A DNA stretch of 64,000 nucleotides from Brachionus manjavacas (taxonomy: Eukaryota; Rotifera; Eurotatoria; Ploima; Brachionidae). Shown here one piece after another: positions 3,695 to 46,405 of the stretch; the first letter of the stretch is position 1; each line of letters opens with the position of its first letter. The DNA is taken from contig JAHQIY010000002.1 in assembly GCA_019054805.1 (NCBI GenBank), positions 4,154,001-4,218,000 of the forward strand, in the 5' to 3' direction. The notes beneath the pieces are model-generated. The model was not told the DNA's origin. It did no database searches and worked only from the letters and a program-made list of their open reading frames with translations. The position numbers and the translations under genes were made by a program.

Positions 3695-5497
3695 ATGGAC
3701 AGTCTAGTTTGTGACTTGACCAATGCTTTAAATTCGAAGCCAATTTTTTTCAAAAATAAGAAAAGTTTAAAAAACCGTAAAAACTTGTCTAATAAAGATA
3801 GAAAAAAAACGAACCTAAATCGAATAGAAAGAAAAGCCCGAAAACCTAAACAACACGAGAAGTTGTACTCCTCTTCTTCTTCTGATACTAAAAAATTCCC
3901 TACTAGATCAAGCTCATCGCGGATTAGGCATAAAAAAATTATGAATCTCCTCTTGGCAGCCAAGGCTTCTATGCGTCCTCTTGACCAGTCTGCGAATTCT
4001 CTGGATTCTGGCATTCAAAATCTGGTAAGGCTCAAACAACCAAATAGTTTTTCCACCGCTCGGTCATCCCGGTGCCAAAGACAAAGCAGAAAATCGATCA
4101 AAAAATCAAAGCGTTTGCGCAATACCAAAGTGTATAAAATTCAAAAAATTTACCGATTTCATTCAAACTATAGGCTGCATTGTCTCAAGCTAAGGCGATT
4201 GCAGAAAAAAATGCTCAGGTCTAATCTTAAAATTGTGCCTGTATTAAACCACGAAAAGATGAGCGTGGAAAACACTACCCACTCATCCTCTGAGTCAACC
4301 ATAACCACTAGTCCCAGCTATTCTTCTTTTAACACTACAACAGACCTCGAATCCTCGTCCATTAGCGACTGTTACAACCAAATGGACGATTTAAGAATAA
4401 ATTCGGATTCAGATTCTCATCTTAAAATGAGAATAAAAAACCAAATTGGTTCCAAAAGGCCAAAAAATAGCTCAAAGCGCAAGTTGTTAGCTTGTAGACA
4501 GCGGAAAAATTTCAACACAAGTATAACTAGTCAATCGAACTTAAATTTAAGTAAATTATTTCAATTTGAAAAAAAAAATTGTCTCAAAAAATTTATTCAA
4601 GATTCAAGTCACAGAAAAATGCTAAATTTCAAACGAAAACGTTGCAAACCATCGATGAATAGGCGAGCTAATGGCCAGCTATCAACTGAGGGCACAAAAA
4701 CCGAGTATGAAGATTCCAATAATGAAGAAATCAACCTTGATTCAGACGTGGAAAACTGTAAAAAGTGCGAAATTCACAAACAAGGATTTGTTGGCCTTGG
4801 GATTCAAAATAATGCTAGAAAAATTGAAAACGAAGCTGATGATGAGCAGTCATCCGAGTCTAGTTTCAAAAAAGAGTTTGAGTGTGTTCCTTGGTGGAAT
4901 GCTTTTGAGCAAGAAATCGGCAATTCGTCCTCTTCCTCAACAACCTTGAATACACCTTTATCTCAGACCACTTTGAGCAATTATCAACGCTTGAATTTGT
5001 TCAATAGCCCTGAAGAACAGAAACAATTTGGCGACATAATAAATGGAGCCCTTGATCTCATGGACCATTCATCTGTTCAATGCTTTAAAAATAGAATTAC
5101 AATTTTGAACGTAAATTAACAATAGTAGTAAAATTTCTTAAATTTTGATTCAAAAATTTGAAGGATGACAAGAAACGAAACCGTAAAAAACGATTTTCGT
5201 TTGTAAGTAATCACAATTCATCGAACAAATCAGAAAGTAAATTGAATTTAAGTGAACCAAGTAAATGCATGAAAATAAATTGGAACCAAAATTAATTTTT
5301 TTAATGAAGTAATTGGCGCGCCGATCTCTGAGAATAATTTAGGTAATAGAATGCTGAAAAAAATGGGCTGGGAACCAGGGAAGAGTCTAGGTACAGTAAG
5401 AGCTCAAGCTGATCCGATTAGCCTAAAAGAGCCGATAACTGTGTATAAGCGGCCAAAGAGACTTGGACTGGGCTACACTGACCGCTCTCACTTTTAA
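3695..5497 (+). CDS. GPATCH2: G-patch domain protein, GPATCH2-like
   Basis: Exons are 3695-5110, 5164-5260 and 5310-5497, giving 566 residues. The long first exon runs into an intron with donor GTAAAT at 5111. The last exon supplies the recognisable part: NLGNRMLKKMGWEPG, then KRPKRLGLGY near the end. This is a G-patch with a basic tail, and the position and sequence resemble animal GPATCH2. The rest is low-complexity, rich in Ser, Lys, Arg and Asn, with acidic patches around residues 340-420, as expected for a disordered nuclear protein. G-patch proteins generally activate DEAH-box RNA helicases in RNA processing; that role is inferred from the family. The start is the first ATG of the open frame. 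GPATCH2L is an alternative name for the same lineage. Confidence 0.75.
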
Positions 5498-29093: not shown

Positions 29094-32000
29094 CTAAACC
29101 TGATATACCGATCTCCTAAGACTTCCCGACGCCATGTGTGCATCAAGTCTCGACTTGAAACCGTTTACTGTAACCGCATTTACTACATAGGATGGAAGTA
29201 AATTCCAGGTGGTTGCAGTCCTGTTAGGCAAGAATTTCCCTCTTATATTGCAATTCCCACAGATCTCCTTAGCAATTTGGTGTGTATGTGATCTACCTAC
29301 ATTCCCCCTTCCTATAGTCATCCCCAGGTCCACCTCCTCTAACCCCCTGGATACTTTATATAATTGTATTAAGTCACCCCTTTTTCTCCTTAATTCCAGG
29401 TCAGTGTACCCCAACCTCTTTAACCTTTCCCCATATTCCAGTCCTTTTAGCTCCACCACCATTCCTGTAGCTCTCCTCTGAACTCCCTCTATCTTCCTTA
29501 TCTCCCTTTTATTCAACGTGTTCCACACCGATGATGCAAACTCTAAATGTGGCCTCACAAAAGTAGGATATAACCTCTTAAAAGATTTATGTTAAAATAT
29601 CTAAACGTCTTTCTAATTCTACCTAACACCCAACTCGCCTTATTAACCGCTGCCTCCACCTGTGCCGAACACTTTCCATCGGCCGTGACCATAATTCCCA
29701 AATCCTTCTCCACTTCCGTTGTTTCCAGTTCAAATCTATCACCATCCCACTCAATCCAATACTTGTCCCTAGGATTATTTCTTCCAAAGTGCATGATTTT
29801 ACATTTTGGGCCGTTCAAACTCATTGACCATGTCTTACACCATTCCACAGTATTATTAATGTCCAACTGAAGTCCGTTATTTAAGCCTAATTTATTTACT
29901 GCTATCACCTTATTGTCATCCGCATACATCTCACATTCATTTTCTAAACATTCTGGCAAATCGTTAATGTATACTACAAATAAAAACGGACCCAATACTG
30001 ACCCTTGTGGCACAGAACTAGTCACCTCCTCCCAATTTGATTCAACATCACCCAGAACAACACATTGCTTCCTTCCTTTTAAGAAAGCCTCCTCCCAACT
30101 CAGCATACTACCTCTCACACCATACGCCTTCAGTTTATATATCAGCTTTTTATGTGATACCTTGTCGAACGCTTTTGAAAAATCTGTGTATAACACATCA
30201 ACCGTATTTCCACCTAGTATATTCCTTGAAACCATATTTTGACACTCCAATAGGTTGGTCACACACGCCCTCCTTCTGACAAACCCATGTTGTTGCCTCG
30301 AAATTAATTTATTTTGATAAAAATATCCCATCAATACATCCCTAACTATGCCCTCCATCACTTTGCAGCACACTGACGTTAAAGACACCGGCCTGTAATT
30401 CACTGCCTCCAGTTTGCTCCCCTTCTTAAATAACGGTGTAATATTTGCCATCCCCCATTCTTCTGGAACCTCACCCTCACTATATGACTTCTTAAATATA
30501 ATTTCTAATGCCTTAGCCCATTCCTTAGCACAACTTTTAAGTACCATCTGTGATACCTTGTCCCTTCCCATTGCCTTAGCACCATCTAGTCTCTCCAGTC
30601 TCTTCACTATACCATCCAATCCAAACATTTCTTCAACATCCCCTTCAAATACCATATGTGTCCTCTGATTAAATTCTGGCATCTCTTTATCGTCATCAAC
30701 AATGAAAACTGACTTAAATTGCCGGTTCAGGATCGATGCGATTTCCTTCCTATCCGTCACATTCTCACCATTTTCTGATTTAATCGACCTAATAGACTCC
30801 TTAGTTTGCTGCCTGTTGTTTATGTACGCATACAATAGCTTTGGATTATCCTTAGCTTTACTTATTATTACCAATTCATACGCCTTAATCGCCTCCTTGA
30901 CACTTTTTCTGACATTTTTTGTACACACTCTGTATTCATCAAGACTTCCCTTCTTTCCACTTATCGCATACCTGTTCCAAAGATTAGCTTTTTTCCGTAT
31001 CAGTCCCTTTAAATCCCGACTCATCCAAGGCGGTCTTTCTTTCCTACCATCCACATCTCTACATTTCCTAAGGTATTTCTCACAAACCTCCTCGTATTCC
31101 CGTAGAAGTATCTCATATTGCTCCTGGACACCCGCACCTGAAAACAAAGTTTCCCAATCCTTCCCTTTTAAATACTCATTCATGCCTATGTAATCCCCCC
31201 TCCTATAATTATATTTATAACTAGTAAACGTTTTATTTTTTTCACCCTTAATATTTCCTGCAGCCAAACCATAACACCAACTAATACTGACATGACCACT
31301 TTCTGCATCCCCCAGCACTTTACCCTGTTCCAATTCATAAACCCTTTCCCTTCCTTCCGTAATAACCAGATCCAATGTATTCGTCATATATGTCCTCTCA
31401 TGATGTTTCTTCTGGAAAGTTTTGAAATATATATTCTGTGTCATGAAGCTTTCATTAAGCGTTCTGATAAATTCATCCGCCGATTCTGATTTTTTTGTAA
31501 TTGTTGGTACTAATGCCTGGTCCCATGTAACTTCATTATAATTAAAATCCCCTGCAATTATCACCCCTGGAATTTTTTATTACTTATTAGGTTACCCGCC
31601 TTTTTTATTGACTCATTTATATTTTCATCCCTCCTCTTATGTATCCCCTTATCACATACAACACCTTTATTGTTTCTCAGAAATTCCGGTCGGTATATAC
31701 AACCCAAGAGAATCGACTCTATACCCACATCCACCGCACACCAAACCTGTTCAATACCTGCTGATCCAAATTGTTCGAAGTCCAAATCTCTAAAAACTAG
31801 TGCTCTCGAAGTTTTGCCGTAGATACAGACCCCTCCACCATTTCCATCTCTTCTATCTCTCCTGAAACATTCATATCCCTCAATATGAATGATCGACCCA
31901 TTGTGGTACCAAGTTTCAGAGATAAAAATGATGTCGGGAGCTGCATCCGCACACATCACCCTTAGCTCATCTAGTTTGTCCTGGTTAAGAGAAGTTGCAT

Positions 32001-32304
32001 TGGTATACCAACACCTTAAACAATTTGAGACCCCCATTTTTGCCCTTAAAATACCTGACTCTTCCCCAGCCTGTATAAATGATCGGTTAAGTGGGCTCAA
32101 GTCACAACTCTCAGCACCCATTTGTGTCAAGTCCTCCCAAGACGAACGATCTATTTCGGTTTGCTCATTAGACAATTCAGTACTACATTCATTCACAAGG
32201 TTAACCCCGACACAACTCCCAAAACCATCCATCACCTTTTTTATTGAAAATAAAAAATTAATTAATAATATAAACAAAAACAAAAACATAATAGTAAAAG
32301 TCAA
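29094..32304 (-). pseudogene. LINE ORF2: endonuclease and reverse transcriptase
   Basis: Three frame segments, 32304-31561, 31564-29555 and 29558-29094, cover one long polyprotein. The first contains the apurinic-type endonuclease: PDIIFISETWYHNGS and RDGNGGGVCIYGK. The second continues it with IIAGDFNYNEVTWDQ and LDLVITEGRE, then reverse transcriptase with ANITPLFKKGSK, YTDFSKAFDKVSHKKL, SVPQGSVLGPFLFVVYIN and the catalytic EMYADDNKVI. The third carries MRPHLEFASSVWN and the C-terminus. Segment joins fall at AATAAAAAATTCC and TTTTAAGAGG, each consistent with one lost A. These could be real lesions or assembly errors in homopolymers. Confidence 0.85.
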
Positions 32305-32336
32305 AATTAGTCTGTTTTTATTAGATCACTCATTTG

Positions 32337-33095
32337 CTATTTCTTGATTCTCCTGAGATCTCCACCACGAATCCCCCAGTAAAAATTTGATACATCATCA
32401 TCGCCACCAAACTTATACTTCCCATATCTCATATTCCCAGTACCATACTCTAGTTTAGCGTTCGCAATGTTCCTCTGTCTCCTTAACTCCCTGTCTCTCA
32501 CCATTTCCGATTCGGTCAAGTCCCGGTTCAAATAAACCTTATCAAATTTACTACCTCTAAGTTTCATGGCCGCCTTCAACACACTTCTTTTAGTCTCAAC
32601 CTCCTTAAACTCCACCACTAACGGTCCTGGCTTCCCTCCTTCACTATCCTTGAAGCGAAGCAACTTACGATCATCTACCGCCACTGTCACCTGCAATACC
32701 TCAAAGATCTCTTTCACAGATGCCTCATCATCACTTTTCTCTAATCCAAACACCATCACATTCTTCTCCTTTTTCTGCACACTGGCCTTCTCCTTCGATA
32801 TTATACCTGTTATGTCTGACCTCACTTCCTTACTATGTTTCAGTTGACTCCATAAATCCGCTGAAGCGGTCGTACCCCTCGTCCCATTATTATTCTCCAA
32901 ACCAACAATTTTTTCCTCCAACTTCTTCTTATCACCCTTCAAGGTTTCAACTTCCTCATCAAGCCTCCTCACATGATGTGCCAATGTCTGTACATATTTT
33001 AGTATGTCCTTCACAATTCCCGAAACGGTACCTACGGTCTGCTTGGCCAATATCGTGTCAATGTCTACCAATTCTATATCCCCAACATCAACCAT
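32337..33095 (-). CDS. LINE ORF1 RNA-binding protein
   Basis: A 252-residue open frame from ATG 33095. Residues 25-70 form a likely coiled coil (HHVRRLDEEVETLKGDKKKL and on). A central block NVMVFGLEKSDDEASVKEIF and a later block VEFKEVETKRSVLKAAMKL with KVYLNRDLTESE resemble the RRM-like core of ORF1 proteins from CR1-type and L1-type elements. It would form trimers coating the LINE RNA; that is inferred from the family. The frame is intact and stops 33 bases before ORF2 opens. Confidence 0.75.
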   Translation of the reverse strand: MVDVGDIELVDIDTILAKQTVGTVSGIVKDILKYVQTLAHHVRRLDEEVETLKGDKKKLEEKIVGLENNNGTRGTTASADLWSQLKHSKEVRSDITGIISKEKASVQKKEKNVMVFGLEKSDDEASVKEIFEVLQVTVAVDDRKLLRFKDSEGGKPGPLVVEFKEVETKRSVLKAAMKLRGSKFDKVYLNRDLTESEMVRDRELRRQRNIANAKLEYGTGNMRYGKYKFGGDDDVSNFYWGIRGGDLRRIKK

Positions 33096-33521
33096 TTCCG
33101 ACAATATTTTATGTTAATTTTTTAATATTCAAATTAAAGTTAATAACTGAGATAAATCTCGTAATTCCTTATTTGAAGTTTTTTATTTTTAACTCGAATA
33201 AGTCTATATTTTTAATTTTTTTAATTTTTAAAAAATAACTTATTAAAATGATAAAAAAAGTAGAAAAAAATTTTCTTAAATTATTTTAAAAACTTTTTTA
33301 AAATTTTACAAAAAATTTAGTGACTGCCCGTCAAAAAGTTGGACGGTTTTTTTGCCACCCGTATACTTTAGACCGCTTATTTTGGCGGTCCAAGAAATAG
33401 AACGCCTTGCTGACCGGCAGATTGACCGCCCGCTTAAAGGTTGTCCGGCTAATGCGGACACGGTCACGGTTTCTGAAAATTTTGGCCGGTCAAGTGTCCG
33501 CTTGTACGGATCCCAACACTA

Positions 33522-35474
33522 AATTTTTACAGCCTTTTTAGAATTTCATAAAGGACGATATTTCATAATCGTTTCTGCTTTTGAATCTTGCTCTCCATTT
33601 AAAAAGCTTAAAGGAAAAAATATCAATAAGATTCAAGGAGGCTAGAAATGAATTTAAAAAATAAACTTTTTTAAGAAGAATTTATAATTTGAATTCTAAA
33701 AATTTCTGAAATTTCTATAAATATTCAATAAAATGTAGAGGAGATTTGTAGAAAAATACAATTTAAATGCTTTTCAGCATTAATTTTAAAGAATATGCTC
33801 TCTTTTTCTTATAAAGCATTGTTTTAAATAATTTAACAAAAATCTTAAAATTCAATTGCCAAGAAATGACTAAAGAAAATTAAGTTTTAATTAATTAATG
33901 AGATAATAATTTAAGAAATATTGGGAATCTAATCAAACAAATGTCTAAAACAATCAAAGAAGAAAAAAATTTAAATATTTTTACTCGAAATTAACTAAAA
34001 GCCTTGTGATGAAGAGATTAATGTGGAAGTTTTCTACATTTGGGCTTTTAACTTTTCAATCTTTTAACTTAATTTTTACAGAATTTATAAAAAAAAAACT
34101 AAATTTAAACATTATAATGTTATATTTTTCAACTAAATTGTTTTTATCTTTTTATTTTTATATAAAATTAAAACTAAATTTTTAATTTTTTTAAATGTAT
34201 TATTTGAATAAATGAAGTGTTAATTGGTCTTTTATGGACAGAAACATTAGTAAACTATGACAGTTGCACCAAGTTTCATTCACAGACTTAATTTTGACCT
34301 AACTGGAAAAGAGAAATAGGATTTTTATAAATTCTATTCTGTTTACTGAATTTCAAAAAACTTGTCATTCTAATTTATCTGTTTCGAAAAAAATCCTGAA
34401 ACAGTTCAATGTGTTTATTAAAATTATTGATATAAAGTAACTTATTGATCACTGATCACTATGAAATATAAAGTTAATATAAATTATATTTTATTTTATA
34501 TTAACTTTTTAGTTACAATGTATCCAAAAAAAAAGTGAAAAAAGAGTTCTAGTTTCTAAAAGCTACTTAATGTCAATACATTTAATTAGCATTGAATTGT
34601 CTCGGGATTTTTTGTAGTTTAAATCTAAAAATAAATAGTCCTTTCAGAAGAAGACTAAAAAAATCGAACTTAAAAATAATAATATTAGTCATCTTGAACT
34701 TTTGAATAGCTCAAAAGTTCGAATATTTTTCTCTTTATTCTTAATTATGATTTTAAAAATTAAAAAATATGCTTTGAATACCCTAGTAAATAAAAATAAA
34801 CATGAATCATTGAATTGAAAATAGCTTGGTTTAATTTTTTAAATTTTTGTAAAAAATCTACAATTTTTTAGAAAGCTTTCCTAGGTCAAGAGATTTTTTT
34901 ATAAAGTTTTTTGCGATGAATTTTAATTTTGACATTAAAACTGATTTGTTAGACATGAAATTTTTTTAAATTGTTTAAATGAAAAAAAAATACAAATAGA
35001 GAGAACAACTCAAATTATTTTTAGCCTTTGGATATTTATTTGTCTTATTAAATTTAGCAAATAAAATAATCAAAAATGAGTTCATGAATGCGCCCATAGG
35101 AAAATTTTCAACTATTGATAAATTTCAAAAACAAATCTTTAAAAAAAAGTTAATATATTTATGTGTAAAAAGAACAAATTTAAAAAAAATTTGTTTAAAA
35201 CATGTTTTTTTCCTCAGTTTAATGCTTAGCTCAAATATATCTTTAAATCCTATAAAAAGCACAAGTTAAATTAATGGGGACTTGGTATTAACAACCAACC
35301 TTTGAACAGTGTGAAACTAGAAATTTAAAAAAATTTAAAGAATGGGTAAAAACAAAACCACAGAGCATAAAATTTTTTTTTTTTAATTTTAAATTTTTGA
35401 AAATTAAAACTATTAAAAAAAGGATATCAAAAAGAGTCAATAAAATTTAAAGTTTTTTTAGAAAAATTATTGAG
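33522..35474. other. AT-rich intergenic region
   Basis: No gene or clear repeat is visible. A small 61-codon frame at 35084-35269 has lysine/leucine-rich content typical of chance frames. A T-run followed by AG at 35460-35461 lies 13 bases before the next gene's ATG. Confidence 0.5.
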
Positions 35475-37075
35475 ATGAGACATGATTCTAATAAAGTTTT
35501 CGATGCTGACAATCAATCAAAGAAGATTAAAGTCTTAGAATCAGATTTAAAAGATCAGCCAAAAGAAGAAGAACCACAGTTTGTCCATCGAGATGGCGGT
35601 TGGGGTTGGCTCGTAGTTTTATGTACTGGTTATTGCTTTGGTATCCTTATAGGCATGTGTAATAATTACGCTTTAATTTATGTCGAATTGGAAAGAGTCT
35701 ACAATGGAACTAATAATCATGTTACTTATGCTGGTTGGATTGGAAGTATGTCAGTCGGAATTCAATACATCTTTTGTGTATTTGGCAGCATACTTATAGA
35801 TTTGTTTACTCCATTAAAAATAGGTCTTCTTGGAGGAATTATATCAACCTTAAGTTTATTTTCATGCGCATTTGTACAAAAATTAACCGTATATTTTTTT
35901 ACGTATGGTTTACTTTTTGGAATTGGTCAATCCTTTCTGCTAGCCTCAACCTTGTCTATTTTGCCCCATTACTTTGACAGGCGTTTATCTTTGGCAAATG
36001 GAATCATGAACTTGATCGGCTCTATTATCATTGTCATCCTTCCTATATTTACATCAATTATAATAAATGCGTATGGTCTTAAAGCCACATTTTTTTTCCT
36101 TACTGCTTTGAACGCTGTGCCTATTGTTCTAGTTCTGTCGTTCAAGTCTCGATTGCCAAAACCAAAAGATTTAACTCTAAAAAAGGAATTAAAAAATAGT
36201 TTAGGCATTGATGTCTTAAAAAAAAAAATGTTTGTTGCCTGGTGTTTTATTACTTTTATTGGAAAGTTTGGTTATTTCATCCCAATATTAAACATTGTAA
36301 GATCTTATTAAAGATTTCTTTATCATTTTGATTTAAAATTTTTCTAGGATCATTATGCTAAATTAGCTTTTCCTGACAAGCCTCCAGTAATAGTTAATAT
36401 TGTGTTTTCGACTTTTGCCGGTATTGCTGGAATTGCCTTTGGAAAATTGGGCGATTATACGATAAAAGTAAAAAACCTTCTCTATTTATTTATTTAAAAC
36501 TTTATCAATTAAATAATTAAATCTTTTTAGTATTTTAACCATGTACATTATCATACATTTGTGTATATATCATATGGAATTGTTCAAATTTTTATACCTT
36601 TTGCGACTGATTACACTTCATTCATGATTCAAATTGTTATATTGGGTATTATAGACGGAATTTTACTCGCATTTATAGTGCCCATTTCAGTCGATTTGGT
36701 TGGGTCATCTAAACTTGGTAATCAAGCTATAGGTAAAATTAAAATTTCTAGAAATTTTTATTATGCTTTTTTAAAATTTAATTTCAGGTTATTATCATAT
36801 TTCTATGAGCGCAACATCAATTGCTGGCCCTGCAGTTGCTGGAAAGATATATGAAGTTTATAAAAGTTACGACAATGCGTTTTATATAGGTGGAATAACT
36901 TCACTCTTTGCTGGATTAATTATGATCATTTTATATTTAATAATTGATCACTATGAAAATAAAAAAGTAAAAAATTTTCAAAATTTCCTAAAAAGGATTT
37001 TAATGTTTTTCAATTAAGCTTAAAGTAAATGAACAGGTGAAGCTGAATCAGATAAATAAAATTGTCGGTTTTTAG
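35475..37075 (+). CDS. Monocarboxylate transporter (SLC16), paralogue 1
   Basis: Exons are 35475-36296, 36348-36467, 36531-36732, 36788-36966 and probably 37019-37075, giving about 459 residues. If the last intron is not spliced, the protein ends at 37017 instead. The family carries lactate, pyruvate or related acids with protons across the plasma membrane, using 12 helices. The first helix begins with the SLC16 signature DGGWGWLVV, and the fifth has YFDRRLSLANGIMNLIGS, the second signature. Hydrophobic segments continue regularly to residue 435. The large loop between helices 6 and 7 is short and lysine-rich. A paralogue with the same architecture lies at 44944-46405 but lacks the third intron. 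The substrate cannot be predicted. Confidence 0.85.
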
Positions 37076-38771
37076 ATTGAACTCTATTTGTATTAAAATC
37101 TGAAAAATAAATTTTTTAATTTTTTTAACAATAAAAAAGTGTTTGATTTTTAATTGTTAATTTTTGATTGTTTTGAAATTTTTGATTTGTCACGTATTTT
37201 AAACAAATGGCCATAAATCTTACGGCTGATTAAAAACGATAGCTTAAATGTTTAAAAAAATAAAAAAAAATAAAAGTACATTTTAAAATAAATTATAGAT
37301 TCTAAATTCAACTTTTATACATTTTTTGCAAAAAACTTCACGGCCACATTTATCAACTCTGATTAAAAAAATACAAGTCATATTTTGATAAACAATGATA
37401 TCAAAATAGACATGATAACTTCAATTGAGAGGACTCTAAGTATTTTTTTTTATTTCATTTTATTAGAAATAATTTACAAAAAAAATTAAAATTATTTAAA
37501 TAATTTATGAGCAATAAAAATAAAAACAATTTAATCAAAAAAAATAATTTAATTTTCTATTTTTTTTTTAATTTACAATTAAAATAAAAGATAATGAATA
37601 TTTTTGATAGAACTTTTAAAGGGGGACTTGAATAATTTTTGGATGGGAGGCTTTACCAACCGTCAGCCCTTCAATGACTACGCCACTGGATGTTACAGTA
37701 TGCACAAGGCTTCTGATCAACAGCAATTTGCAAGAGTCAATACACGCATTGATTAAAAAAAATTTTGTTTAATTTCTTTTAAATTTGAATGTCATGATAA
37801 TATTTTGAAAGATCAGTCAAAAGAACATTCTTCAAGACAAGCTTTTACAGATAAAGAAACTTAACTAGCCAACATAGTCGATAATTTAAATAGAAAATAA
37901 ATTATGATTTTTGTTCTTATTTTCAGGCTTTAAAGCTTTTGAGACCAAATCAAGACCTCCAAAATTTTTTGATTAAAACAGTTAATGATTCTAAAATTGA
38001 ATTGTCGTTTTTATTTTCTCTAAATCTTTTAAGGTTTTTCAAATAATTTTAATTTCTAGTCTATGAGTTATATTTTCAACATTGTCTTCCTCGAGTAGAT
38101 CCACTAATTCGCAGATTTTTTGAAATTTAATTTTTATCTTTATGTACACATTATTTGAATTTTTAAAGGCTATATTTTCAATGATTAAAACTTTTTATTT
38201 ATATGGACCCAAAAAGGCATATTTTAGTATTTTTGATAGATAAAGTAAAAAATTGATGACAAGTTTTAATTGAAAAATAAATTATTTAGAAATTTTAATT
38301 TAAACTCACATTTATTTATCAATTATTTGTAAAAAAATAAAAAATGAATTCTAAATTCTAAATTTGAAATATTTTATTGTTAAAATATCCTTTTAATAGA
38401 GTAAGTTAACTTAAGAGAAAATAAGATCCAATTTAATCTTTTGTCAAAAATATTAATTACATTCCGTCAATTATAAGATCATCCTGAATTATGCCAAACA
38501 CTCGATCTAGTTTTTTCTTCAGGTTAAATTTTTTATTAAAACCCTTTCTTAGATCATTAATTTGATATCTTAATATAGAAACTTGGACTTAAATCGGATA
38601 ACTTTTTCATTAAACTCTTCACAAAATCCTTTAGGCACAAAAATGTCTTTGTAAACTGATGATAAATTTTTAGAATAAAAAAAAAGGTCACCTAGAATAA
38701 AATTTGCTGATATTCTTTAAATATAAAATCTCTTACGAATTGAAAAAAAATTTATTATTTTAAATTTTAAG
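37076..38771. other. AT-rich intergenic region
   Basis: No gene is visible. A repeat fragment at about 37619-37692 is described separately. AATAAA words follow the transporter gene near 37055-37107. Confidence 0.5.
37619..37692 (-). repeat. Transposon terminus fragment (CAGTGGCGTAG type)
   Basis: On the minus strand CATCCAGTGGCGTAGTCATT opens the segment and a run of C bases closes it. The word CAGTGGCGTAG beside a G/C run is a recurrent terminus of DNA transposons in many animals. The matching other end is not seen. Confidence 0.4.
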
Positions 38772-40941
38772 ATGAGGCTCATTGCAGCTTTTGGTGTCAT
38801 CTTGACAATATCAATTAACACATATTTTTGTATGCAATTAAAATTAATTAAATCAATTGATGAATTGGACCAACCTGTATCAGCATCACGCTCCATAGTC
38901 TCAATTACAGAGGACTTTATTGAAAAACTCTTTTTTAATCTATCTTCTGAATTAAGTTCTATGAGTCAACCGCGTTCTATATTGGAAAAAAACATTAAAC
39001 AAACAGTCTTGACTCCTGGTGGGAGTAAACGAGCCAAAGAAATCCATGATTTGTCGACATTAGGCCTTAAAGCAGCTAGAGCTATTGCTAAAGTCCAGGG
39101 CAAGAAAAAAAGTAATATTTTACTAAAAAGCTACAAGGCTCCGTCAAAATTTTGTCCCTATGCAACAAAGCCTTACTGTGATTTTTCCTATCCATATCGC
39201 AGTGCCGATGGCTCCTGTAATAACAAGTATTATACATGGTGGGGTATGAGCGAAACTCCATTTAAGAGGATTCTAAATCCGATTTATGATGATGGTCTCA
39301 ACATGCCTAGAAGACGATCTGTAATGGGTAGAACACTACCTAATCCTAGAAAAATTGCTATGGACATTCATCATGAACTTGATATGATATCTCATGTAAC
39401 CAACATGTTTCCTCATTTTGGTCAATTTGTAGACCATGATTTGACTTTGACAGCTCTTATTTCAGATGAAGAAGGAACCCCAATAAAATGCTTTTGTCAT
39501 AGTCAGGACTTTGACTGCTATAATATTCCAATACCAATGGGAGATCACATAAACAAAGACCAACGATGCATGGTAACTCCTAGATCAGCAGCAAGCTTCA
39601 AGAAATTCAATTGCCATTTAGGACACAGGGAACAGCTCAATTTGTTGACGCACTGGCTCGATCTGAGTCAAACATATGGCAATGATTTGAAGACAAATCT
39701 GAAACTTCGCTTGAGATATGGCGGTCTCTTGAATTCTTCAGTGATTCGTGGATTGAACCGCGACTATTTGCCATTTATTCAAGACGGCAGTTGTCCGAAC
39801 ATACCAGCCGGTCAGCCATGCTTCAAATCAGGTGATATACGTGTAAATCAGAACAGTATATTAACTTCACTACAGACTATTTGGTTAAGAGAACATAATC
39901 GTGTAGCCATCATTTTGTCAAAATTAAATCCATATTGGTCAGATGAGAAACTTTTTCAAGAGGCTAGAAAAATAGTCACTGCCACTTATCAGCACATTAT
40001 ATACAAAGAATGGTTGCCAATTTTAGTCGGAATAAAAGTGGCTAAATTATATGGTCTTTTGCCTTTAAATCAAGGATATTTCAACAGATATAATTATAAA
40101 CTATTTCCTAATATAGCTAATGAATTCAGCACAGCAGCAATGAGATTTGGCCACACTTTGGTCAGAGCTTCAGCTATCAAAGTTGACAAAAATTACCGAG
40201 CATATTCAAATTCATCTTTTCCGTCAATTATTTTCAAGCCTGCGTCTGCTTTTCAAAGAGGAGGTCTGGACTCGTATGTCAGAGGGTGCATTGTTGAACC
40301 ATCTCTTAGATACGATTCAAATGTGGTTGATCATTTAAATAATCATTTGTTCGAGGGCTTGAACAAAGATAGTCCGACTAAGCGTTTTTCATTGCCGGCA
40401 TTGAATATTCACCGTGGTAGGGATCATGGTTTAGCTGGATATAACCACTACAGAGCTCTTTGTGGACTAAATTATGCCAAGTCCATAGATGATTTGTTCA
40501 ATATGCCGCTTCATATCAGAGCGAAATTAAAAACTCTCTATGAACATGTAAACGATATTGATTTGTTTACAGGTGGTGTAAGTGAACTGCCAATTGAAGG
40601 TGGAGTGGTCGGCCCAACTTTTGCTTGTAAGCTATTTTAGAATGAATAAAATTTTGATTAAATTTAAACCTAAAGGCATTCTGGCAAAGCAATTTAGAGA
40701 TTTAAAGTTTGGCGATAGATTTTATTATGAAAATGGGCATGACTATACGACAAGATTATCGTATCGTCAGTTGGACGAGATAAGAAAGGCTTCTTTTGCC
40801 AGAATTTTGTGTGATAACACAGACATTCAGTTTGTGCAAAAAAATCCCTTTTTAAGAAATAATTTTCAAACAAATCCTTTGATTAGCTGCAGCAATATAG
40901 ACAGTATTAATTATTTGGCATGGAAGGAAAAAGCATACTAA
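38772..40941 (+). CDS. Secreted animal haem peroxidase
   Basis: Exons are 38772-40626 and 40676-40941, giving 706 residues. The first exon seems to stop at 40640, but splicing at GTAAGC joins a second exon starting ILAKQFRDLKFGDRFYYEN, required by the family. Residues 1-20 form a signal peptide (MRLIAAFGVILTISINTYFC). The catalytic block GQFVDHDLTLT near residue 217 has the distal histidine, LREHNRVAIIL near 375 follows the proximal region, and NIHRGRDHGLAGYNHYR lies near 545. Cysteines such as CPYATKPYC fit extracellular disulfides. Relatives include peroxidasin, chorion peroxidase and thyroid peroxidase, but there are no Ig or LRR domains. A role in cuticle or eggshell cross-linking is possible. 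It converges with the MsrB gene 80 bp away. Confidence 0.9.
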
Positions 40942-42756: not shown

Positions 42757-42889
42757 CTGCTCCTTTTTAATAAAAAATTAAAAAATTTGTTTCAAATGTG
42801 AATTTTTTAATGAGGATATTTTTATGAATAGAAAATTCGTTTCTAAAATAAAATATAAATTGATTTTTTATCAAAAATAATATAAATCG

Positions 42890-43612
42890 GGTTATCCCTA
42901 AAACACGGATCCGGATCGCCGGATTAGGTACCTAAAACACGGTTTTTTTTTCCGGATTAGACTATGATTCTAAAACACGGATCGATTTTACGGATTTTTG
43001 TCGGACCCTAAAACACAGATCCGGATTGAAAAAAATTGAAAAAGACAATTAAAAATCAGCCCAATTTGAAATTAGACGAAATTGTAATTGGTCCTTCAGT
43101 TTCAGTCGATACTCTAGGACTGCAGAATGGTTTGAGTTCGGGTCAAAGTAAATTACAATTAATTGAGTTAAAAAGTTTAAAAAAAAAAGACAAGCGTGTT
43201 TTGTCAATTGTTTTGATCAACAAAGAGTTTGATTTCAGCTGTAGAATAAAAGAAGATATGTTGCTAACAATGCCTGAAGATGTTCCATATGGTGCTTTAA
43301 ATTTTGATTTTATTAAATATAAAAATATATTTGAGGAAGAATGTTTTGAAAATTTAAATGTTAAATTGTCACAAAGAAAAAAGTTGTTTGACTCAAAACG
43401 TACTCAAATTTACAAAATTTAATTTTTTTTAATTATTTCTTTTAATTTTTCCGTACCAATTGTTATTAAAATTGTGTAATTTAAATAAATTTTAATTTTG
43501 AAACTTAACATTTTTAAATCCGGGTCCGTATTTTAGGCATTAAAAATCCGAAAAAAAAACCAGGGTTTAGGTACCTAATCCGGCGATCCGGATCCGTGTT
43601 TTAGGGATAACC
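42890..43612. mobile_element. Mutator-like non-autonomous element with cargo frame
   Basis: Both ends start GGTTATCCCTAAAACACGG and stay identical, as inverted repeats, for 47 bp (42890-42936 and 43566-43612); similarity continues past 60 bp. TATAAATCG flanks both sides exactly (42881-42889 and 43613-43621), a 9-bp target duplication as made by Mutator-type transposases. CTAAAACACRGATC-type words recur at about 42899, 42933, 42971 and 43010, as subterminal transposase sites do. The interior carries one open frame and no transposase. The intact ends and duplication indicate recent insertion. A MULE-type transposase remnant exists at 12.8 kb, showing that such enzymes occurred in this genome. 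Confidence 0.8.
43036..43422 (+). CDS. Unidentified frame carried by the Mutator-like element
   Basis: The frame is open for 129 codons but begins with TTG, with a stop just upstream and no ATG near its 5' end. AAAAATCAG at 43051-43059 could be a splice acceptor, after which PNLKLDEIVIGPSVSVDTLG reads in phase. The protein has a hydrophobic-strand pattern (RVLSIVLINKEFDFSCRI), then MPEDVPYGALNFDFIKYKN and a basic tail. I do not recognise it. Such length without a stop is unusual in this AT-rich DNA, so it is probably the last exon of a captured host gene or an element-specific protein. It may be expressed or not. Confidence 0.4.
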   Translation: MKKTIKNQPNLKLDEIVIGPSVSVDTLGLQNGLSSGQSKLQLIELKSLKKKDKRVLSIVLINKEFDFSCRIKEDMLLTMPEDVPYGALNFDFIKYKNIFEEECFENLNVKLSQRKKLFDSKRTQIYKI

Positions 43613-44943
43613 TATAAATCGGTAAAAATTGTATATTTTTTGATGAAGATCAGAGAATAGAAATCGAAAATACTTGGTTTACATGCTCGTTTTTTAGTAA
43701 GTAATCCACAGGCAATTTCATCAACTACCATGAAACAAAGAAAAAAAATAAATGAAACCCAAACCAGTCACTAGAACCAAATGATTGCAAAAGGGTGAAA
43801 AAAATTTTTGTAAACTAAAATAACTAATGAAAGGTATTTACATTCTATGAGCATCCTTTTGTATACTCAAAGAATGTGAATTTTTATTAGAATTTTTTGT
43901 TATTTGTGCTAAGTTAAACGAGTAATTATTAAATTTTATAAAATTTATTTTTTTATCTCTTTTAATTTTTTCTAATAGAAAAAACCGATTATTATTATAA
44001 AAATATCTCAATAATAGAAATTCACATTTTGGGATGATTTTTTAATTTTTTTACTTAACATATAACATTTCAATTTATTTATGGAAGATTTCTGCTGATA
44101 TTGTGTAAAAATTTTGATGATAAAGGTATTTTTGTTACTCTTATTTTTGTTAAAAAGATATCAAAAACATTGAATTATTACCCGTAAAATAAAAAACGCC
44201 TTGATGAACGTCTGTTAAACGTGAGCGTTATTATGCGTGAAAACGCTTGAAAAACGCTTAAAAAGAAGCCACAAAAACGGCTATTTTTTTTTAATTTAAT
44301 TGATCTTTTTTTTTTTGAAACCTTTAATTTGAAAAATAATGCAAAATAACTTGCCTTTAAAAATTAATTAATTTATTTATTTATTTAGGCGTTTTTTGTT
44401 TTACGGGTAATTATATTTTCTAAAATTTTCATATTTAGCAAGCATTTTTAGCTTGGAAATTATTTAACAGTAAATTTTTTTTAAAGTCGAATTTTTAGTC
44501 ATTACCAAAAAGCATTTTCTCTCAAAAATGTGTGTAAAATAACTCATTATTTTTATGTGCTTTAAATTCTAAAATTTTAAAATATTAAATGATTGCTTTA
44601 GACAAATAAAATCAAGAAATATATTTTGTAGCAAACATCTAGTTAGTAATGAAATATTGTATCTAAAAGATAGATTTAATGATATATCAAATTGCATTTG
44701 AGCAGCCATAAATTTAATGAAATATTTCTAGGGAAAATTTGAAAGTATTAGGCGATTAGCATATGAAATGCGTCCGTAAATTAAAGGTTGAGCAATAAAT
44801 GTCTAACAAAAATCTTAAATTCTAGATTTCAGTTATTACTTTAAATAATAAAATGAATCAAAATCGAGCTAATAATATAAATATTAAAAAAAAAACTAAA
44901 ATTATTTAAAAATTTTGGAGATATTTATAAAATTTTTACAGTC
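43613..44943. other. AT-rich intergenic region
   Basis: Only the Harbinger-like MITE at 44177-44411 is recognisable. TTTTTACAG ends two bases before the next gene's ATG. Confidence 0.5.
44177..44411. mobile_element. PIF/Harbinger-like MITE
   Basis: The left end TTACCCGTAAAATAAAAAAC and the right end, read inverted, TTACCCGTAAAACAAAAAAC differ by one base. Each end is flanked by TTA, the 3-bp target duplication typical of Harbinger elements. The 235-bp interior holds several AAACGCTT words and no coding frame. Confidence 0.65.
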
Positions 44944-46405
44944 ATGAAATTTAAATTTCCTAAACCAAGTGAGTCATATCATAGCGATGGAGGCTGGGCG
45001 TGGATTGTAAATATAGCCACTGGTTACTGCTTTGGTATTTTAATTGGAATGTGCAACAATTATGGGTTGATATATGTTGAATTTGAGCGTATTTATGAAG
45101 GCACTGAAAATCATGTGACATATGCTGGATGGATTGGTAGCATGGCAATAGGAGTAGAATATATATTTTGCGTTTTAGGAAGCGTTCTAGTTGATTTATA
45201 TAATCCATTAAAAATCGGACTATTGGGTGCTGTAATTTCAACAGCATCACTTATAGGTTGTATTTTTGTTACTAATTTAAAATTGTATTTTCTCACGTAT
45301 GGATTTTTATTTGGCTTTGGTCAAGCATTGTTACTTGCTGCAACATTATCTATATTACCATATTATTTTGAGAAAAAGCTCTCTTTGGCAAACGGATTAA
45401 TGAATTTTATAGGCTCCGTAATAATTGTTCTTTTACCAATAATTACTTCAGCAATAATAAATTCAAGTGGCTTAAAAATGACATTCCTCATGTTAGCGGT
45501 AATTAATGCATTTGGAGTTTTAGCTGTTTTTACTTACATAACTCCTGAAAAAACAAAAGATGAATCGAGTAGCTTTCTAAAAGAAATTGAAAAAAGTTTA
45601 GGAACGGAAATTTTCAATAGGAAAAAATTTATTTTATGGTGCATTTCAACATTTATAGGAAAATTTGGTTATTTTATTCCGATTATAAATATAGTAAATA
45701 ATATAATTAATTATTTTAGTATTTGAATTTAACTGATGAATTTTTTTAGGATCATTTTGGAAAATTGGCTTTTCCCGATAAAGAACCTATGATTATAAAT
45801 GTAGTCTTTTCGACTTTAGCAGCAATTGCGGGGATTGTCTTTGGCAAACTGGGAGATTGGACAGCTAAAGTATATTTTCTGTGAAAAAATTTAATCATTT
45901 TTTAATTCTAAAAATCAGAAAATACCACATGTTCACTATCATACAATAGTATATCTATTTTATGGAATAACACAATTTTGTATTCCATTTTCAAATATTT
46001 ATTGGGTTTTCATGGTCGAAATTGTCATATTGGGTATATTTGATGGTATTTTGCTATCCTTTATTGTTCCTATTGCATATTCGCTGGCTGGATGTCATAA
46101 ATTAGCTAATCAAGCCATCGGATATTATCACATCACAATGAGTATCACTGCTATAGCTGGTCCTACCGTTGCTGGGAAAATATTCGAAATTTATAAAAGT
46201 TACGATAATGCGTTTTATTTAGGAGGTTTAACTTCAATTGTGGCAGGAATACTTTTATTATTTGGAACAACAATTATCGATTGCTTAAAGCTAGATGATG
46301 TAAGTAAATCGAATCAAATAAAATAATAATCAGCTTTTAATTAAGGTAAACGAAACGCAACATATCGAAAATCAAGAAAAAAACGAAGAGACTTTTAAAA
46401 TTTAA
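44944..46405 (+). CDS. Monocarboxylate transporter (SLC16), paralogue 2
   Basis: Exons are 44944-45693, 45750-45869, 45919-46299 and 46346-46405, giving 436 residues. It matches paralogue 1 along its length: DGGWAWIVNIATGYCFGILI, YFEKKLSLANGLMNFIGS and VTYAGWIGSMA occur in the same order. The N-terminus before the first helix is only about 15 residues, against 40 in paralogue 1. The third intron of paralogue 1 is absent here: the codons around QAIGYYHITMS are continuous. The first two introns are in the same positions. The last short exon is chosen because paralogue 1 has a similar VNE-starting exon. Activity as a proton-linked acid transporter is inferred from the family. Confidence 0.85.

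Follow-up and report, generated by a model that had tools for sequence, protein, structure and literature searches.

A 723-bp Mutator-like element of Brachionus manjavacas, very probably an internal-deletion derivative carrying a transposase remnant

The element and its surroundings

The window, i.e. the entire stretch of 64,000 nucleotides that was analyzed, is located on contig C2 of the 114-Mb genome of the rotifer Brachionus manjavacas. It harbors a 723-bp element (42890-43612), which is flanked by a frame for an animal haem peroxidase (38727-40640) and by one for a major-facilitator transporter (44881-45726). The peroxidase frame, which is in keeping with an animal host, sits between this transporter frame and a second major-facilitator frame (35451-36311) that resembles it by eye, possibly reflecting a local duplication. 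A search with a rotifer spliced-leader sequence gave no match. Further upstream, at 29094-33113, the window contains frames of a LINE-type retrotransposon, with a reverse transcriptase domain (PF00078) in the frame at 29555-31576, and the 28-34 kb region displays a strong G/C skew. The frames at 408-1957 appear by eye to belong to a Ty3/gypsy-type polymerase, and the first 2000 nucleotides have a G+C content of 0.52, compared to 0.19-0.40 in the other 2-kb steps. A search of the window against Rfam at gathering scores yielded nothing.

The features of the element are collected in Table 1. An earlier note, made from the letters alone, had described ends that are identical inverted repeats over 47 bp, a perfect 9-bp duplication and four subterminal words, all of which proved exact. 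The duplication is without mismatch at both flanks and comprises exactly 9 bp, as the adjoining base is A on the left (42880) and G on the right (43622), and this length falls within the 8-11 bp that are given for the flanking duplications (TSDs) of MULEs in PMC6446971, from which the definition of Pack-MULEs is also taken. The terminal inverted repeats are likewise in agreement with the superfamily. Forward words of the form CTAAAACAC[AG]G have their first base at 42898, 42932, 42970 and 43008, and a single inverted copy is found at 43594; the first of these and the inverted one are situated within the terminal repeats. These words are likely end repeats to which the transposase binds. The ends carry the sequence GGTTATCCCTAAAACACGGATC, and a 23-nt end, searched with up to three mismatches, recovered 50 sites in the 114-Mb genome compared to 0 for the reversed control. 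Thus, the ends of the element are not a product of chance. Related end types are also present at other loci of the genome.

Table 1. Features of the element and its flanks in window coordinates.
Feature	Position	Strand	Basis
Left TSD copy, TATAAATCG	42881..42889	.	Sequence; 9-bp duplications of siblings
5' terminal inverted repeat	42890..42952	+	Perfect over 47 bp, 95% over 63 bp
Array of four CTAAAACAC[AG]G words	42898..43018	+	Related elements carry similar end words
5' subterminal noncoding region, including the supposed splice acceptor	42973..43060	+	Common to the 5' end of L011
Junction of the internal deletion, joining 5' end sequence to (probable) 3' coding sequence of a transposase	43060..43069	.	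Limits of the L011 and L013 matches
Probable C-terminal remnant of a transposase (behind the SWIM zinc finger), open, with its own stop	43070..43422	+	Homology
3' untranslated and subterminal sequence	43423..43549	+	Stop to 3' end about 190 bp, comparable with L048
3' terminal inverted repeat	43550..43612	-	Inverted-repeat match
Right TSD copy	43613..43621	.	Sequence

Between the ends lies an open frame that runs from stop to stop over 130 codons (43030-43419, with the stop codon at 43420-43422) and that has its earliest ATG at 43258. Hence the frame without a starting ATG that the earlier note had pointed out is present, being 130 rather than 129 codons long. Its length is only mildly unusual, as 15 of 1000 Markov-shuffled interiors contained frames of at least 128 codons. 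Neither Pfam nor PDB returned a match to the frame, and an AlphaFold model of the frame alone, computed without an alignment, has a mean pLDDT of 39.6 and, at this low confidence, says little either way. No transposase domain was found in the element, as expected for a derivative, and SWIM is also absent.

Copies of the element and the deletion junction

A DNA search of the genome with the element returned 69 matching pieces, which represent the window copy itself and at least 18 further, related places. Both ends are recognizable, with at most five mismatches per end, in 13 of the 18 sibling places. Ten of these 13 exhibit a 9-bp flanking duplication with no or one mismatch (exact in three), while the remaining three have two, three and five mismatches. 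In this paired-end scan, full-length pairing was preferred over five lesser internal pairings (L014, L017, L023, L025 and L026, with 5-7 flank mismatches), and duplications of low complexity, namely the T runs of L012 and L014 and the A/T-only duplication of L025, carry less weight. The sibling L011 escaped the scan owing to its damaged outermost 5' end; it is flanked by a 9-bp duplication with one mismatch, CATTAATTC/CATCAATTC. An empty site for the window insertion was not found in the assembly, where a search with the joined flanks matched only the two flanks of this very locus, overlapping by 10 bases that correspond to the duplication and one G.

Neither did the genome yield a complete parent with the ends of the window element. 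A 5.2-kb candidate with paired ends, L063 (C10:2073665-2078827), was rejected, since its match to the domain is a chance one (tblastn E 5.0) and it belongs to a different family. This element (fetched as C10:2073600-2078900) has similar ends, GGGTTATTACTAAAACACGGACC, and carries a minus-strand frame at 4130-4513 that by eye resembles an OTU-type cysteine protease, for which Pfam gave no match.

The origin of the window element is instead illuminated by L011, which measures 1050 bp. It matches the window element at 42973-43060 (C8:5084942-5085020 against element positions 84-171, 78% identity), and the match resumes for the greater part of the frame and for the 3' part, with about 500 bp extra between the shared parts. 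Although its translation is broken by stops, this extra stretch matches L052 from SWIM into the domain that follows (E 3e-9) and also L048 (E 3e-5). Another sibling, L013, retains a part of the same upstream coding stretch (E 5e-6 to L052) and matches the window element from 43069. The window element thus shares its ends with a longer element and has an interior that is a subset of it, with the qualification that the outermost 5' end of L011 is damaged. As L011 has kept the upstream stretch of the SWIM region that is missing here, the window element is the product of a deletion.

The same comparison bears on the splice acceptor that had been proposed at 43051-43059. The TCAG is indeed there (43056-43059), but it resides in 5' noncoding element sequence that L011 also has, directly at the deletion junction. 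It therefore represents noncoding element sequence rather than an exon boundary, and no parent host gene was identified among the 43 matches of the frame in the genome; 43060 is the deletion join.

Relatives of the frame and its decay

A genome search with the translated frame gave 43 matches at E<=10, 27 of them in the window copy or its siblings and 16 at diverged places. The 120-aa frame sequence aligns to diverged loci with identities of 44%, 32% and 38%, at E values between 1e-10 and 4e-9. In a second tblastn, at E<=1, the domain was recovered in 14 of the 16 diverged places, leaving L056 and L058 without it, and SWIM sequence or element ends accompany it at 11 of these 14 (i.e. 11 of the 16). 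Inverted ends surround the domain at eight places, L047, L049, L053, L057, L059, L060, L061 and L062. Neither SWIM nor convincing ends were detected at L050, L051 and L055; the DNA of L050 resembles that of L051 and L055, and also that of L054, where a remnant of SWIM-flanking sequence precedes the domain.

In L048, the first part of a 211-aa frame aligns with sequence that follows the DDE domain of L064 (40%, E 4e-13) and the last part with the SWIM region of L066 (92%), and beyond this frame a few stops are followed by the C-terminal domain, a stop, end words and the element end, which is the order of the window element. SWIM in L048 was placed by alignment only, as Pfam did not recognize it there. 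In L052, the beginning of the domain (E 4e-7 to that of L048) shares a 147-aa frame with the SWIM finger (PF04434, 17.6 bits against a cut-off of 19.6), while the remainder of the domain, in a neighboring frame, matches the window frame (E 8e-7). Similarly, a 203-aa frame of L066 combines SWIM (18.5 bits, cut-off 19.6) with the start of the domain (82% to that of L048); L066 was found via L048 sequences, lies outside the list of 43 matches and is linked to the window frame solely through the domain of L048. L061 contains SWIM-region sequence (77% to L048) together with the domain. PF10551 (MULE DDE, cut-off 27.6) scores 28.9 bits in L065 and 18.2 bits in L064, both homologous to L048, in the case of L065 within the SWIM part. 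All SWIM scores in L052, L066, L065 and L064 (17.6-18.7 bits) are below the Pfam cut-off of 19.6. The C-terminal parts of the DDE-bearing L064 and L065 do not match the window element, and DDE, SWIM and this C-terminal domain were at no single locus found together.

The same domain is also held by short elements of subfamilies with other ends, namely L047/L053 and L057/L059/L060/L062. Judged from these alignments, the frame is most likely a tail fragment of the transposase lineage of the family itself, derived from behind the SWIM finger. Jointly with the 9-bp duplications and the end repeats, the homology to MULE/SWIM transposases corroborates the Mutator-like identity that the earlier note had assigned.

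Several observations were made alongside. L047 (4192-5232) and L053 (4099-4821) closely resemble each other in sequence, and both have inverted ends, 83-84 bp long and 98-99% identical; L053 is the shorter, missing part of the interior of L047, and both keep C-terminal-domain sequence. Behind the SWIM part of its MULE transposase, L064 has a PHD-finger-like frame on the plus strand (3738-4106; PF00628, 21.3 bits, cut-off 24). An end-like site (L067, C11:1761223) is located 5 kb upstream of the SWIM frame of L052. Genome-wide, PF10551 returned 394 candidates, at least 150 of which, all among those scored and listed, exceed the cut-off; MULE transposases are therefore abundant in this 114-Mb genome.

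We then turn to the fate of the frame among copies. The alignment comprised 15 of the 18 siblings (excluding L009, L015 and L016), while 13, additionally excluding L012 and L014, were considered for the 63-codon core. This core is interrupted by an in-frame stop or a frameshifting gap in ten of the 13, the exceptions being L010, L011 and L018. When changes relative to the majority sequence are pooled for 14 copies, dN/dS is 1.23, a value that persists when L010 and L020, the tail columns of which are non-homologous, are removed. Moreover, ten of the 15 aligned siblings (L017-L026) have one 117-nt deletion within the frame in common, which removes its 3' part. As seven of them are flanked by 9-bp duplications that have no or one mismatch, this type has spread without the 3' part of the frame. 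The frame is thus not conserved among copies, and there is no sign of selection across them. For the window copy against each of the 15 siblings, dN/dS ranges from 0.37 to 1.47, and against L011, where the frame is open over 104 residues with 83% identity to that of the window, two computations gave 0.43 and 0.54. We read the low pairwise values as constraint from before the deletion, when the sequence was part of a working transposase.

Interpretation and relation to known systems

Aggregated, these findings make it very probable that the element is non-autonomous and derives by internal deletion from a SWIM-type MULE, and that the frame is a remnant of the transposase. In a larger parent, itself postulated, the deletion would have begun shortly after the 5' end and reached to shortly after the codons of the SWIM finger, leaving both ends, approximately the last 115 transposase codons and the 3' untranslated part. 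Abortive gap repair is a proposed mechanism for deletions of this kind and may have operated here. Insertion at 42890 would then have generated the 9-bp duplication, with the transposase presumably provided in trans by a related, complete MULE able to recognize CTAAAACACGG ends. Should the element still move at all, this would most likely also occur in trans. The frame would be a relic, from which most likely no protein is made. The earlier note had named, as a result that would speak against its own views, the case that all copies encode a normal transposase of which the frame is only a fragment; our data come near to this, except that the copies examined are themselves deleted or broken.

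The earlier note had suggested two other views of the frame. One of them, a Pack-MULE in which an exon captured from a host gene is joined at the splice acceptor ending at 43059, may draw on the MULE-like nature of the element, on the TCAG in front of a frame without early ATG, and on the five of 16 diverged matches that carry no assignment (L050, L051, L055, L056 and L058). The bulk of the matches is however found in the window copy and its siblings or, among the diverged places, next to SWIM sequence or element ends; none of the 43 was identified as a host gene, and the sole match within a long frame (535 aa, on C16) has an E of 2.1. Moreover, L011 runs upstream into SWIM-region sequence and not into a host exon, and rather than an exon structure, 43060-43069 marks the deletion point between the 5' end and mid-coding sequence. 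We therefore regard a captured exon as extremely unlikely. As Pack-TIRs of animals have already been reported (PMC8277862), a genuine case at this locus would in any event not be the first from an animal.

The other view, an element-specific small protein that aids or represses mobility, for instance a truncated, end-binding transposase, is congruent with the frame being open in both the window copy and L011, with the low dN/dS of this pair, and with the recurrence of a similar 3' coding piece in several subfamilies, bearing in mind that the places examined were chosen for having this piece. Such a protein is difficult to reconcile with the broken core of most siblings, the pooled dN/dS, the loss of the 3' part in types with clean duplications and the first ATG at 43258, and we deem it very improbable that the frame serves this role. 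In a broader variant, the unnamed C-terminal domain behind SWIM, present in several MULE subfamilies of this genome, would be repeatedly kept in short derivatives, some copies of which could make a truncated end-binding or repressor protein; this we consider very improbable. It is hardly conceivable, finally, that the structure is an unrelated inverted repeat, stemming from another TIR superfamily or from chance. The ends are admittedly shorter than the >100 bp given as typical for TIRs of MULEs in PMC5225508, and the element has no transposase of its own that could be found. On the other hand, copies share 9-bp duplications, end repeats and homology to MULE/SWIM transposases, and a MULE group with 9-bp TSDs, 42-46 bp TIRs and SWIM is described in PMC6446971.

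With an internal-deletion derivative as the preferred reading, the element no longer speaks for exon capture from a host or for a novel protein of mobility, and rather illustrates clearly how internal deletion acts in a MULE family of small size. It also serves as a warning: when a frame of no recognizable identity lies between MULE ends, it can be the fast-evolving transposase tail of the family itself, as in this case missed by the present searches of Pfam and PDB.

A literature search for MuDR in connection with transposable elements of the rotifer Brachionus returned no paper. Turmoil-1 of C. elegans reportedly represents a case of transduplication. In a survey of 100 animal genomes, 370 Pack-TIRs are given (PMC8277862), and the window element resembles these and the Pack-MULEs in being non-autonomous and in having partial coding sequence between its ends, but its coding piece probably originates from its own transposase lineage and not from a host gene. 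A similar group described in PMC6446971 is the Sm sub-group of group 16, which comprises invertebrate MULEs with a 9-bp TSD, TIRs of 42-46 bp, SWIM and FLYWCH; the likeness concerns the length of the TSD and of the TIRs and the SWIM-like sequence in transposases related to the window element. Also comparable are the abundant derivatives of Muta1 of Aedes aegypti, with shared ends, subterminal repeats and a TIR of 145 bp (PMC5225508). Both systems have TSDs of 8-9 bp, shared ends with short subterminal repeats, variable shortened interiors and derivatives that outnumber complete copies, whereas the window element differs in its TIR of 47-63 bp, in the small size of its family (18 related places) and in that no complete parent was seen.
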